A stretch of DNA of 64,000 nucleotides, taken from positions 62,001-126,000 of the forward strand of contig JAHJVE010000008.1 in assembly GCA_018828385.1 (NCBI GenBank), given 5' to 3'. The notes under the pieces are model-generated. The model saw only the letters and a list, made by a program, of their open reading frames with translations. It did not search any database and had not been told where the DNA came from. Shown one piece after another: positions 4,292 through 59,446 of the stretch. How positions within the stretch are numbered: the first letter of the stretch is position 1; each line of letters starts with the position of its first letter. The position numbers and the translations under genes were made by a program. Source of the stretch: Gammaproteobacteria bacterium. GTDB taxonomy: Bacteria; Pseudomonadota; Gammaproteobacteria; Burkholderiales; Rhodocyclaceae.

Positions 4292-5158
4292 ATGACCTCG
4301 CGCCTCCCTTTGTTGCCGCCCGAGCATTTGCCGAGCTGGCACGCTGAGCTGCATCTTGGCTTCGCCCGCGTTGGCGAACGCACGGTGTTGCGCGAAAACC
4401 GGCATCGCGGGCCGTTGCGGGTGCAGAAGGCGTTGTATCCGGAGGGCGATGCAGTTTGTCAGGCCATTGTGCTGCACCCGCCATCGGGTATTGCCGGCGG
4501 CGATCATCTGGCGATTTCGGCCGAGCTTGGTGCTGGTGCACATGCCCAACTGACGACGCCGGGCGCTGGCAAGTGGTATCGCAGCGGTGGGGCCGAGGCT
4601 TCGCAGAGGATTGATTTCACGGTGGGCGAGGGCGCCACGCTGGAATGGCTGCCGCAGGAAACCATCGTCTTCGACGGCGCCCGGGCGCGCATGGAAACCC
4701 GTGTGGCGTTGGCCGCCGACAGCCGCTATGTCGGCTGGGACATTCTATGCCTTGGCCGCTCGGCGGCTGGCGAGCGTTTTGAAAAAGGTCGTTTTGACCT
4801 GTTTTTTCGGGTTGACCGTAGCAATCAAGCAATCTGGCTTGAGCGCGGCGGCTTCGATGGCAACGACCCGATGTTGAGCAGCCCGCCCGGCTGGGCAGGC
4901 GCCACGGTGTGCGGCACCTTGCTGTGCTCCTTTCCCGAATTGCCGCAGCAGGCGGCGGCCCTGCTCGAAGCCTGCCGCAAGATCCCGCCCGCCGATGGCG
5001 CCAATCATGGCCTGAGCGCCTTGCCCGGCATGTTCGTCGCCCGTTACCTCGGTGACAGCAGCGAGGCCGCCCGTTTGTGGTTTGCCGACCTGTGGGCCAT
5101 CCTGCGCCCGGCCAGCTGCGGTCGACCGGCCGTTACCCCCCGAATCTGGAATACCTGA
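4292..5158 (+). CDS. ureD: Urease accessory protein UreD
   Basis: UreD (288 aa) is the chaperone that binds apo-urease and, with UreF and UreG, allows nickel insertion. Family landmarks include PPSGIAGGDHL near residue 65, LEWLPQETIVFDGA near 115-128, WLERGGFDGNDP and the C-terminal GRPAVTPRIWNT. It opens the operon ureDABCEFG, ending 9 bp before ureA. A copy of the dispersed repeat (4788-4825, minus orientation) lies inside the gene and encodes about residues 166-178 (DLFFRVDRSNQ) without disrupting frame, in a variable segment just before WLERGG. Possibly translated from a leaderless mRNA. Confidence 0.95.
   Translation: MTSRLPLLPPEHLPSWHAELHLGFARVGERTVLRENRHRGPLRVQKALYPEGDAVCQAIVLHPPSGIAGGDHLAISAELGAGAHAQLTTPGAGKWYRSGGAEASQRIDFTVGEGATLEWLPQETIVFDGARARMETRVALAADSRYVGWDILCLGRSAAGERFEKGRFDLFFRVDRSNQAIWLERGGFDGNDPMLSSPPGWAGATVCGTLLCSFPELPQQAAALLEACRKIPPADGANHGLSALPGMFVARYLGDSSEAARLWFADLWAILRPASCGRPAVTPRIWNT
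4788..4825 (-). repeat. Dispersed repeat copy 1 (inside ureD)
   Basis: Read on the minus strand this is TTGCTACGGTCAACCCG followed by an A6 tract, CAGGTC and an A4 tract. It matches the core and the two A/T tracts of the family and is translated within UreD as part of the protein. Confidence 0.85.
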
Positions 5159-5167
5159 GGAGTCTTC

Positions 5168-5470
5168 ATGGAACTGACACCGCGCGAAAAAGACAAGCTG
5201 CTGATCTTCACCGCCGGCCTGCTCGCCGAGCGGCGCATGGCCAAGGGCCTGAAGCTGAACTACCCGGAAGCCGTGGCTTTGATCACCTGCGCCATCATGG
5301 AAGGCGCCCGCGAAGGCAAAACCGTCGCCGAACTGATGCACGCCGGAACGCAGGTCCTGACCCGCGCCGACGTGATGGATGGCATTGCCGAGCTGATCCC
5401 GGAAATCCAGGTCGAGGCCACCTTCCCGGACGGCACCAAGCTGGTCACGGTCCATAACCCCATCGTTTGA
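5168..5470 (+). CDS. ureA: Urease gamma subunit
   Basis: UreA (100 aa) is the small structural subunit of urease, which hydrolyses urea to ammonia and carbamate in the cytoplasm. It begins MELTPREKDKLLIFTAGL, contains RRMAKGLKLNYPEA and ends with the conserved VTVHNPIV. Length is exactly the family norm. A good ribosome binding site (TGAGGAGTC) precedes the ATG, and ureB begins 9 bp after the stop. Gamma and beta are separate genes here, as in most proteobacterial ureases. Confidence 0.98.
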   Translation: MELTPREKDKLLIFTAGLLAERRMAKGLKLNYPEAVALITCAIMEGAREGKTVAELMHAGTQVLTRADVMDGIAELIPEIQVEATFPDGTKLVTVHNPIV

Positions 5471-5479
5471 GGAGCTGAC

Positions 5480-5785
5480 ATGATCCCCGGAGAACTCCTC
5501 GCCGAACCCGGCGAACTTGAACTCAACGCCGGCCGGCCGACGATCACGCTGGTCGTCGCCAACACCGGCGACCGGCCCATCCAGGTCGGCTCGCACTACC
5601 ATTTTTACGAAACCAACGCCGGCCTGAGCTTTGACCGCGAAGCCGCGCGCGGTTTCCGCCTCGACATCGCCGCCGGCACCGCCGTGCGCTTCGAGCCGGG
5701 CCAGACGCGTACTGTGCAACTGGTCGCGCTGGCTGGCGACCGCAAGGTTTATGGTTTCCGTGGCCTCGTTCAAGGAGCTCTCTAA
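5480..5785 (+). CDS. ureB: Urease beta subunit
   Basis: UreB (101 aa) is the second structural subunit. It begins MIPGELLAEPGELELNAGR and carries the conserved GDRPIQVGSHYHFYE block and AAGTAVRFEPGQ near the C-terminus. GAGGAG precedes the start. Its stop codon overlaps the ureC start (TAATG), implying translational coupling for subunit stoichiometry. Confidence 0.98.
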   Translation: MIPGELLAEPGELELNAGRPTITLVVANTGDRPIQVGSHYHFYETNAGLSFDREAARGFRLDIAAGTAVRFEPGQTRTVQLVALAGDRKVYGFRGLVQGAL

Positions 5786-58834: not shown

Positions 58835-59323
58835 ATGAACAATTCACTGAAGACGACGTTTGCCGTTCTGGCCGCGCTGGCCTGCTGGACGCTGGCCGCT
58901 CCCGGCATGGCCGGTGAGGTGCCGAAAGCCCTGCGCGGCACCGATGTCGCGGCGCCGGACCCGGCCCCGGACGCCAAGAAATTCCTTGGCGGCAAGCCGG
59001 GCGGACAGGAAAAGGTAGCTCGCACTTTCCGCGATCAACCGCCGGTCATTCCGCATGCAGTCGAGAATTTCGACGAGATCACGCTGGACGAAAACCAGTG
59101 CCTGAGCTGCCACGGCGTCGACAACTACAAGAAAAAGAAAGCCCCGAAGGTCGGCGACAGCCATTTCCGCGACCGTGACGGCAAGTTGCTCGAACATGCC
59201 TCGGCGGCTCGCCACAACTGCACCCAGTGCCACGTCCAGCAGGTCGACGCGCCGCCGCTCGTCGACAACGATTTCAAGGGCGACCTGGTGGCCGGGAAGA
59301 GCGCCAAGGCGAGCAAGAAATAG
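58835..59323 (+). CDS. napB: Periplasmic nitrate reductase diheme cytochrome NapB
   Basis: NapB (162 aa) is the small diheme subunit that reduces NapA. A signal peptide (ending PGMAGE) is followed by two heme sites, CLSCHG near residue 89 and CTQCHVQ near 130, with the conserved FRDQPPVIPH segment. It follows AAGGAGGAGCGCC and is the last gene of napDAGHB. A hairpin terminator follows. Confidence 0.96.
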   Translation: MNNSLKTTFAVLAALACWTLAAPGMAGEVPKALRGTDVAAPDPAPDAKKFLGGKPGGQEKVARTFRDQPPVIPHAVENFDEITLDENQCLSCHGVDNYKKKKAPKVGDSHFRDRDGKLLEHASAARHNCTQCHVQQVDAPPLVDNDFKGDLVAGKSAKASKK

Positions 59324-59346
59324 AACTGATCGACGCGGGGAAAACG

Positions 59347-59372
59347 ACAAAGGGAGCCGCGGCTCCCTTTGT
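59347..59372 (+). terminator. Hairpin terminator after napB
   Basis: ACAAAGGGAGCC and GGCTCCCTTTGT form a perfect 12-bp stem with a 2-base loop. The T tail is short, so termination may be bidirectional but moderate. Confidence 0.7.
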
Positions 59373-59407
59373 TGCTGTCTGGCCGGCATTCCCGGCGGCC
59401 TAGCGGA

Positions 59408-59446
59408 TTGCTACGGTCAACCGGGAAAAATGGCCAAAAATGAAAT
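59408..59446 (+). repeat. Dispersed repeat copy 12 (between napB and rpoH), consensus form
   Basis: TTGCTACGGTCAACCGGG, an A5 tract, TGGCC, an A5 tract and TGAAAT. The two A tracts are exactly 10 bp apart. This copy matches the family consensus throughout and lies between two gene 3' ends. Confidence 0.95.

Follow-up and report, generated by a model that had tools for sequence, protein, structure and literature searches.

What is a repeat of about 40 bp doing at a dozen places in 64 kb of bacterial DNA? The DNA is a stretch of 64,000 nucleotides (the window; G000:C6:62001-126000) from genome G000, an assembly of 4.30 Mb in 24 contigs that is 99.55% complete. A sequence-only reading of the window had noticed 12 copies of the repeat and had listed three candidates: a DNA uptake signal, a nucleoid-protein site, or a family of repetitive extragenic palindromes (REP) or miniature inverted-repeat transposable elements (MITE). 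We find that uptake fits best. The REP/MITE candidate is disfavoured by the lack of alignment gaps at the alignable copies within genes and by the prevalence of substitutions, and a chromosome-binding site stays as the main rival. We put the probability that the repeat is a DNA uptake signal, by which cells would prefer DNA of their own kind, at roughly 0.7.

The host probably belongs to the Dechloromonas/Azonexus group (Azonexus: Azonexaceae, Rhodocyclales), because the nearest named relatives of the window's UbiB protein are there. The closest named matches were from an uncultured Dechloromonas (94%), Dechloromonas sp. SSB2 (91%), and Azonexus sp. R2A61 (89%), with records very near the window's own possibly left out of the comparison. 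This agrees with the Rhodocyclales, which the sequence-only reading gave as the host group.

The repeat is genome-wide and has a regular layout

The repeat is real, is spread across the genome, and is far more frequent than expected by chance. In the 4.30 Mb there are 573 exact cores (ACGGTCAACC), or one per 7.5 kb, against 13 occurrences of a control with the same letters backwards. With up to one mismatch, the core occurs 19 times in the window (3.69 expected), and none of 100 shuffled sequences reached 19.

For the layout, we used 458 kb of G000 (the window and 20 other stretches; 10.7% of the genome). This is not a random sample: ten stretches on C1-C5 were selected in knowledge of the site list, and ten on C6-C15 without it. 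A 40-column weight matrix, trained on just the 69 exact-core sites in this sample (10 of them in the window), found 94 sites of at least 14 bits in the 458 kb. In the window, 15 sites scored at least 14 bits and 17 scored at least 10 bits, versus no sites of at least 10 bits in five Markov-shuffled windows.

Across the 69 sites, conservation runs from about -7 to +34, with little beyond. The order is a lead resembling GATTGCT, then ACGGTCAACC, GG, an A/T tract at +12 to +17, NGGCC, and another A/T tract at +23 to +28; a third short run of A lies at +30 to +33. The two main tracts are 11 bp apart, which is one helical turn. GG and both tracts are conserved, and GGCC less strictly, much as the sequence-only reading had described. 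The information content is about 51 bits in total, of which 20 are in the core and were fixed by the selection of exact-core sites. A more general form of the core is RCGGTCRACC (we write its dialects as CGGTC-R-AC). The core is nearly two-fold symmetric (CGGT-CA-ACCG), and in the G dialect it is a perfect palindrome (ACGGTCGACCGT).

All 12 of the positions noted earlier are copies, and the strand split (8 plus, 4 minus) was correct. The exact core that they were said to share is in 10 of the 12; the copy at 44698 has ACGGTCGACC and the one at 40994 has GCGGTCAACT, both with good tracts. The weight matrix adds three weaker copies, at 19201 (-), 33326 (-), and 52500 (+). We saw none of the three outcomes that had been named as counting against the repeat: the core is over-represented genome-wide, its copies reach beyond the window (hundreds in G000), and the tracts are conserved across copies.

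Copies change by substitution

The repeat might be a mobile element of the REP or MITE type that copied itself around the genome and later decayed. Like these elements, and like bacterial interspersed mosaic elements (BIME), it is short, interspersed, and present at high copy number; it is also patchy between species, and its unit of about 40 bp is sharply bounded. We compared the 8 sites that lie within genes of the window to G060, a repeat-free sister species. Three of the 8 had no spanning protein alignment, and the other 5 all aligned without a gap, which argues against a MITE or REP element. These five are the exact cores at 13951..13990 (-; antisense in gene 13935-14621, residues 6-17) and 53385..53424 (+; sense in gene 53277-54038), and the weaker copies at 19201..19240 (-; ACGGTCGACC, 27.5 bits, in the gene for a rep-like helicase), 33326..33365 (-; ACGGTGAACG, 30.0 bits, in gene 33039-33548), and 52500..52539 (+; ACGGTCGACG, in gene 52017-53276), which is the weakest listed copy at 17.2 bits. 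In gene 53277-54038, the residues under the site are VTVNRNFRPKSK in G000 and VEAASFAKTRQT in G060, so the protein changed letter by letter at the motif.

Comparisons with other species give a similar picture. The copy at 25932..25971 (+), between the convergent genes 23339-25915 and 25965-26405, has an exact core in 9 of the 10 aligned species (G000 included) even though its surroundings have diverged; the tenth species is G060. The copy at 26457..26496 (+) adjoins the 3' end of the helicase gene 26493-29771; some species have it intact, and in several relatives it is degraded by substitutions. Most copies in other species differ by substitution, and relatives contain partly degraded intermediates. 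Judging from these alignments, copies at the genic sites that could be aligned change by point mutation in place.

We also asked which parts of the repeat are kept between G000 and three relatives. At genic sites, identity in the core was 0.983, versus 0.84-0.86 in the flanks. At intergenic sites, it was 0.933 in the core, versus 0.853 and 0.901 in the flanks. Within the first two tracts, 14 of 25 substitutions of A or T led to the other A/T base, compared to 49 of 328 in the flanks (p = 8e-6; the test pools the three relatives, so the counts are not independent). The suggestion that A/T content rather than sequence is maintained in the tracts is thus borne out.

For a mobile element, this maintenance of A/T content instead of sequence is awkward, as are the shifts in the make-up of the core between species (see below) and the presence of 54 of 94 sites inside genes, on both strands. 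We noticed no long terminal inverted repeats or target duplications, although we did not search for these systematically. Overall, a REP- or MITE-type origin seems very improbable.

High counts are confined to one genus

High counts of the repeat were found only in this genus, and they are patchy among its species. Among 76 genomes from the genus, 15 have at least 100 matches to ACGGTCRACCNNNWWWW (up to 605), 25 have 11-73 matches, and 36 have 10 or fewer, with at most 3 matches for the controls. If the first base may be R (searched in 22 genus members), then G034 has 292 matches, G071 has 187, G008 has 144, and G078 has 131, while G016 (7), G022 (3), and G066 (9) are within the control range. 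The same search found at most 8 matches in any of 373 genomes from 67 other genera in the family. Across the order, 393 genomes from outside the genus had at most 9 matches each. For the bare 10-base core in 24 other families, the top count was 20 (in G037, with 7 for the control). Within the genus, the repeat is absent from the sister pair G060 and G077 and nearly absent from other members.

Counting k-mers without reference to the motif recovered it as TGCGGTCAAC in G097, TGCGGTCGAC in G008, GTCGACCGTG in both G061 and G031, and ACGGTCAACC in G070; in G071 and G005, the top words did not include it. What shifts between dialects is the proportion of A and G at positions 0 and 6, and the forms are mixed within genomes. 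In G000, for instance, 84 of 99 sites have A at position 6; in G061, 23 of 36 have G there. Sites for this comparison had to match CGGTC[AG]AC and the first tract; G034, with its 1.6-kb contigs, was left out, and most genus members were not sampled. (In the palindromic G dialect, one site may be counted on both strands.) Although only the first tract was required, the second tract was at the same place in all 9 genomes with at least 19 sites. So, the layout of the Haemophilus uptake signal, a core with two A/T tracts downstream, which had been noted for the window, holds across these species.

In a tree of one gene from 19 genomes (with a midpoint root), the species with the A dialect form one clade whose sister is the pair G060 and G077; G031, G061, and G011 lie outside. 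Given these positions of repeat-rich and repeat-free species, the repeat was either lost or gained repeatedly. As for other over-represented motifs in repeat-free genomes, the top words in 80 kb of G060 resemble one tandem repeat, and the top words in 100 kb of G016 have low counts or are mildly enriched.

Two genomes have unusual copies. In G031 (L067 and other loci), some copies are long palindromes, with a ACGGTCGACCGT core and A/T tracts on both sides. Each of these could be one core that is readable in both directions, or else a terminator hairpin. In G063:C1, between 1.35 and 1.70 Mb, ten listed copies in a row are on the minus strand, and several of them are of the ACGGTCAACCGG type of other species; this stretch was possibly imported from a repeat-rich relative.

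Location of the sites in the genome

We classified the 94 sites using genes called by a home-made codon-usage script, not by a standard program. Genes contain 54 of the sites (84% expected), and the other 40 are between genes (16% expected; p = 1e-9). Of the 37 intergenic sites that have a called gene on each side, 15 lie in convergent gaps (11% expected; p = 5e-6) and 29 are nearer to a 3' end. This raises the possibility that the main role of the repeat is at 3' ends, in terminating transcription or otherwise, and the palindromic copies in G031 would fit as well. However, a terminator would not explain the 54 sites inside genes (30 sense and 24 antisense), or why copies in tandem gaps have the same orientation as the genes in 9 cases and the opposite orientation in 9. 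Also, uptake sequences of both known types are described as having a secondary use as terminators (PMC12616744 and PMC13020248), which is compatible with uptake. We consider a mainly terminating role to be the least probable of the explanations that we weighed.

The sites have no preference for the G-rich strand (50 versus 44 of the 94). With no orientation bias relative to GC skew, we rejected a polarity like that of Chi, of FtsK-orienting polar sequences (KOPS), or of segregation sites. Another kind of chromosomal site would be bound by a dimeric protein (a nucleoid protein, a segregation protein, or a global regulator), and selection would maintain each copy individually. The core is nearly palindromic, and perfectly so in the G dialect; some copies in G031 have tracts on both sides; and phased A-tracts, which would be bent, are spread across the genome. 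All of this would suit such a protein. But the 54 sites in genes, in either orientation, and the lack of a link to GC skew would not, and the absence of the repeat from G060 and G077 and its near-absence elsewhere in the genus are hard to square with an important architectural site. Furthermore, about 51 bits at hundreds of places would presumably need selection at each one. We judge this explanation, the main rival to uptake, to be unlikely.

Spacing was checked on four contigs. Sites on C2 are more evenly spaced than random (P = 0.004), C1 has one 48-kb gap (P = 0.019), and C3 and C4 are unremarkable. Three of the 21 sampled stretches have no sites, and these contain integrase-, plasmid-, or island-type genes (a small test, and mobile genes were searched for in the site-free stretches only). 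L032 (GC 0.54), which was picked with the site list in view, encodes integrases, a resolvase, and HipA. L045 and L049, which were not, encode a primase-type protein, DUF932 and DUF1173 proteins, and an efflux system (L045), or a beta clamp, a MucB-type polymerase, and E2/ThiF proteins (L049). We take these two gene sets to be of plasmid or island type; no integrase was among the L045 and L049 proteins that were searched. In a viral collection, we found no exact match to the one 21-base pattern that we searched for.

Is the repeat a DNA uptake signal?

If the repeat is an uptake signal, then a DNA-uptake pilus would recognise the motif on free DNA, and the cell would preferentially import and recombine DNA of its own kind. 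The CGGTC-R-AC core would be bound by a protein at the cell surface, probably a minor pilin. The two A/T tracts, one helical turn apart, might ease the way of the DNA through the secretin by bending or opening it. Biased uptake and recombination could then drive the copies to hundreds, as in the molecular-drive model proposed for Haemophilus. In this model, as described in PMC7811141, PMC12616744, and PMC3630211, biased uptake and recombination raise the frequency of a motif without any benefit at each site.

To our knowledge, uptake signals have been reported in only two bacterial families: the uptake signal sequences (USS) of Pasteurellaceae and the DNA uptake sequences (DUS) of Neisseriaceae. 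The sequences of Haemophilus and Neisseria are described as evolving by point mutation, as scarce in coding and in newly acquired DNA, and as having dialects; USS have two A/T tracts downstream of the core (PMC7811141 and PMC12616744). The overall picture for our repeat, with hundreds of copies of a long motif that are built up by substitution, lie mostly inside genes, are uneven among sister species, and are lacking from the mobile DNA that was sampled, is like theirs (PMC7811141, PMC12616744, and PMC3630211). Our repeat resembles USS (Hin-USS, AAGTGCGGT) in its strict short core followed by two A/T tracts, its point-mutational evolution, its coding and non-coding copies, its absence from the sampled DNA that looks newly acquired, and its species dialects; the GCGGTC dialects even share TGCGGT with Hin-USS. 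It differs in that its core is RCGGTCRACC, not AAGTGCGGT or ACAAGCGGT, so that only CGGT (or TGCGGT in some dialects) is common to both. Its core runs on into CRACCGG and is nearly palindromic, and the host is a betaproteobacterium, not a gammaproteobacterium. In USS, the tracts are nearer to GCGGT than they are in this repeat. As for DUS (GCCGTCTGAA, with the receptor ComP), the likenesses are hundreds of copies, dialects, a betaproteobacterial host, and a pilin of the ComP_DUS family. However, the repeat differs throughout from GCCGTCTGAA-type motifs, which have a CTG core, and the ComP_DUS-family pilin is also found in repeat-free species. DUS are described as continuous, with a length of up to about 13 nt (PMC12616744). 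By sequence, then, the repeat is neither USS nor DUS; it most likely works like one.

Several observations weigh against uptake. The ComEC protein is in 71 of 76 genus members and the ComP_DUS-family pilin is in 70 of 76, repeat-free species included. Also, the minor-pilin operons of G000 and G073, close relatives that have the motif in common, seem to be different. Uptake sequences in Pasteurellaceae are described as biased towards the ends of genes (PMC2346458); this differs from our repeat, whose 54 genic sites show no such bias. The near-symmetric core suggests a dimeric binder, and neither the USS core AAGTGCGGT nor the DUS GCCGTCTGAA has this two-fold symmetry. The Haemophilus genome is about 1.8 Mb. 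It has 1,465 cores (PMC7811141), so one core per 7.5 kb is a lower density than that of Haemophilus USS. At intergenic sites, only the core is clearly more conserved than the flanks (identity was 0.848 for +18 to +22 and 0.867 for the third tract), and the DNA alignments of these sites to G060, which are poor and contain gaps, do not show how these copies arose. The TTGCT lead that the sequence-only reading reported is present in the 69-site profile, but between species, positions -6 to -1 are no better conserved than the flanks (identities of 0.77 at genic and 0.82 at intergenic sites, the latter below its flanks). Finally, no title among the literature matches listed concerned competence in the genus.

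On balance, the repeat has the genomic traits of an uptake signal that we could test, except that the known machinery genes do not track it and that it has no bias towards gene ends. A more specific proposal is that this is a third, independently evolved system for sequence-specific uptake, outside Neisseriaceae and Pasteurellaceae, which combines a Haemophilus-like layout with a two-fold symmetric core. One core could then serve in both directions, and the receptor would be a symmetric binder unlike ComP. We hold this tentatively, at a little below even odds. Among the open-licence matches listed, we found no report on the motif, on uptake sequences, or on competence in this group; the papers listed as containing the ten letters of the core are on other subjects, by their titles.

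If there was a third origin, it would supply a comparison that has been lacking, by showing which features of uptake signals turn up repeatedly: A/T tracts, dialects, or spread by molecular drive. And with gain, dialect change, and apparent loss all inside a single genus, sister species could be compared to trace how an uptake language arises and dies out. An uptake signal would also be of practical use, since tagging donor DNA with this short sequence might aid the transformation of cultured Dechloromonas or Azonexus.

Competence genes and candidate receptors

G000 encodes an intact ComEC (772 amino acids, with three domains). It also has a minor-pilin operon in which a ComP_DUS-family pilin and a GspH-family pilin are beside PilW and PilY1; the former matches Pfam's ComP_DUS model with 42.5 bits (the cut-off is 27.3). 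A search of PDB sequences with this pilin found only ordinary type IV and related pilins, and the search with the GspH-family pilin found nothing. The operons are at L234 (G000:C7) and L238 (G073:C106), in species that are 96% identical over the 7-kb stretch that was compared; the apparent difference between the two operons suggests an exchange of pilus-tip genes.

Because repeat-rich and repeat-free species are side by side in one genus, the receptor could be looked for by comparing them. GspH/FimT-type pilins (69 of 76 genus members), ComEC (71 of 76), and ComP_DUS pilins (70 of 76) were considered as receptor candidates, and none of them separates the two groups. A scan for N-methylated pilins in 9 genomes turned up a type II secretion-like cluster that is present in 6 of 6 repeat-rich genomes scanned and is missing from the pilin lists of G060 and G077. 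In G000 (L314-L315 on C23), this cluster includes a secretin, three pseudopilins, and GspE-, GspF-, and GspG-type proteins (all named by eye from sequence), and it adjoins large exported-looking proteins. We dropped it as a candidate because repeat-free G016 has a diverged relative (best matches of six proteins, 36-56% identical) and because its genes resemble those for protein secretion.

In both G002 and G088, an insert of about 33 kb interrupts comEC, and its position in the gene is the same in each (G002:C33, about 109.6-143.3 kb, L328-L329; G088:C1, about 2218.7-2251.2 kb, L330-L331). The insert in G002, with a GC content near 0.51, has a large serine recombinase at its start; it also encodes a type ISP restriction enzyme, a protein whose N-terminal domain is of the CoiA family, and a MucB-type polymerase. 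It contains no copies of the repeat. A mobile element that disrupts a competence gene thereby keeps transformation from removing it, so this insert hints that transformation is, or once was, active in the genus.

Other copies in the window

Of the remaining copies in the window, three lie within genes, and all three have the exact core. The copy at 4786..4825 (-) is antisense inside gene 4292-5158, and its core is kept in G085, G070, and G002. At 8591..8630 (+), the copy is in the sense direction inside gene 8021-8707, where it encodes the residues TVNRKNWPK. The third, at 36019..36058 (-), is discussed below.

The others are between genes. The exact core at 18284..18323 (+), between genes 17963-18280 and 18399-20390 (the rep-like helicase), has an 18 bp interruption in G085 and G070. 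The GCGGTCAACT copy at 40993..41032 (+) is kept in G085, G070, G002, and G097. The ACGGTCGACC copy is at 44697..44736 (+), and exact cores are at 48918..48957 (-) and at 59407..59446 (+), the latter between the convergent genes 58835-59323 and 59462-60322.

The antisense copy at 36019..36058 covers residues 10-21 of gene 35991-36641. This copy and the one at 13951-13990 are near the starts of two different genes, and both encode FALFFGLTV; the motif thus seems to give the hydrophobic leader segments of these two genes an identical peptide.

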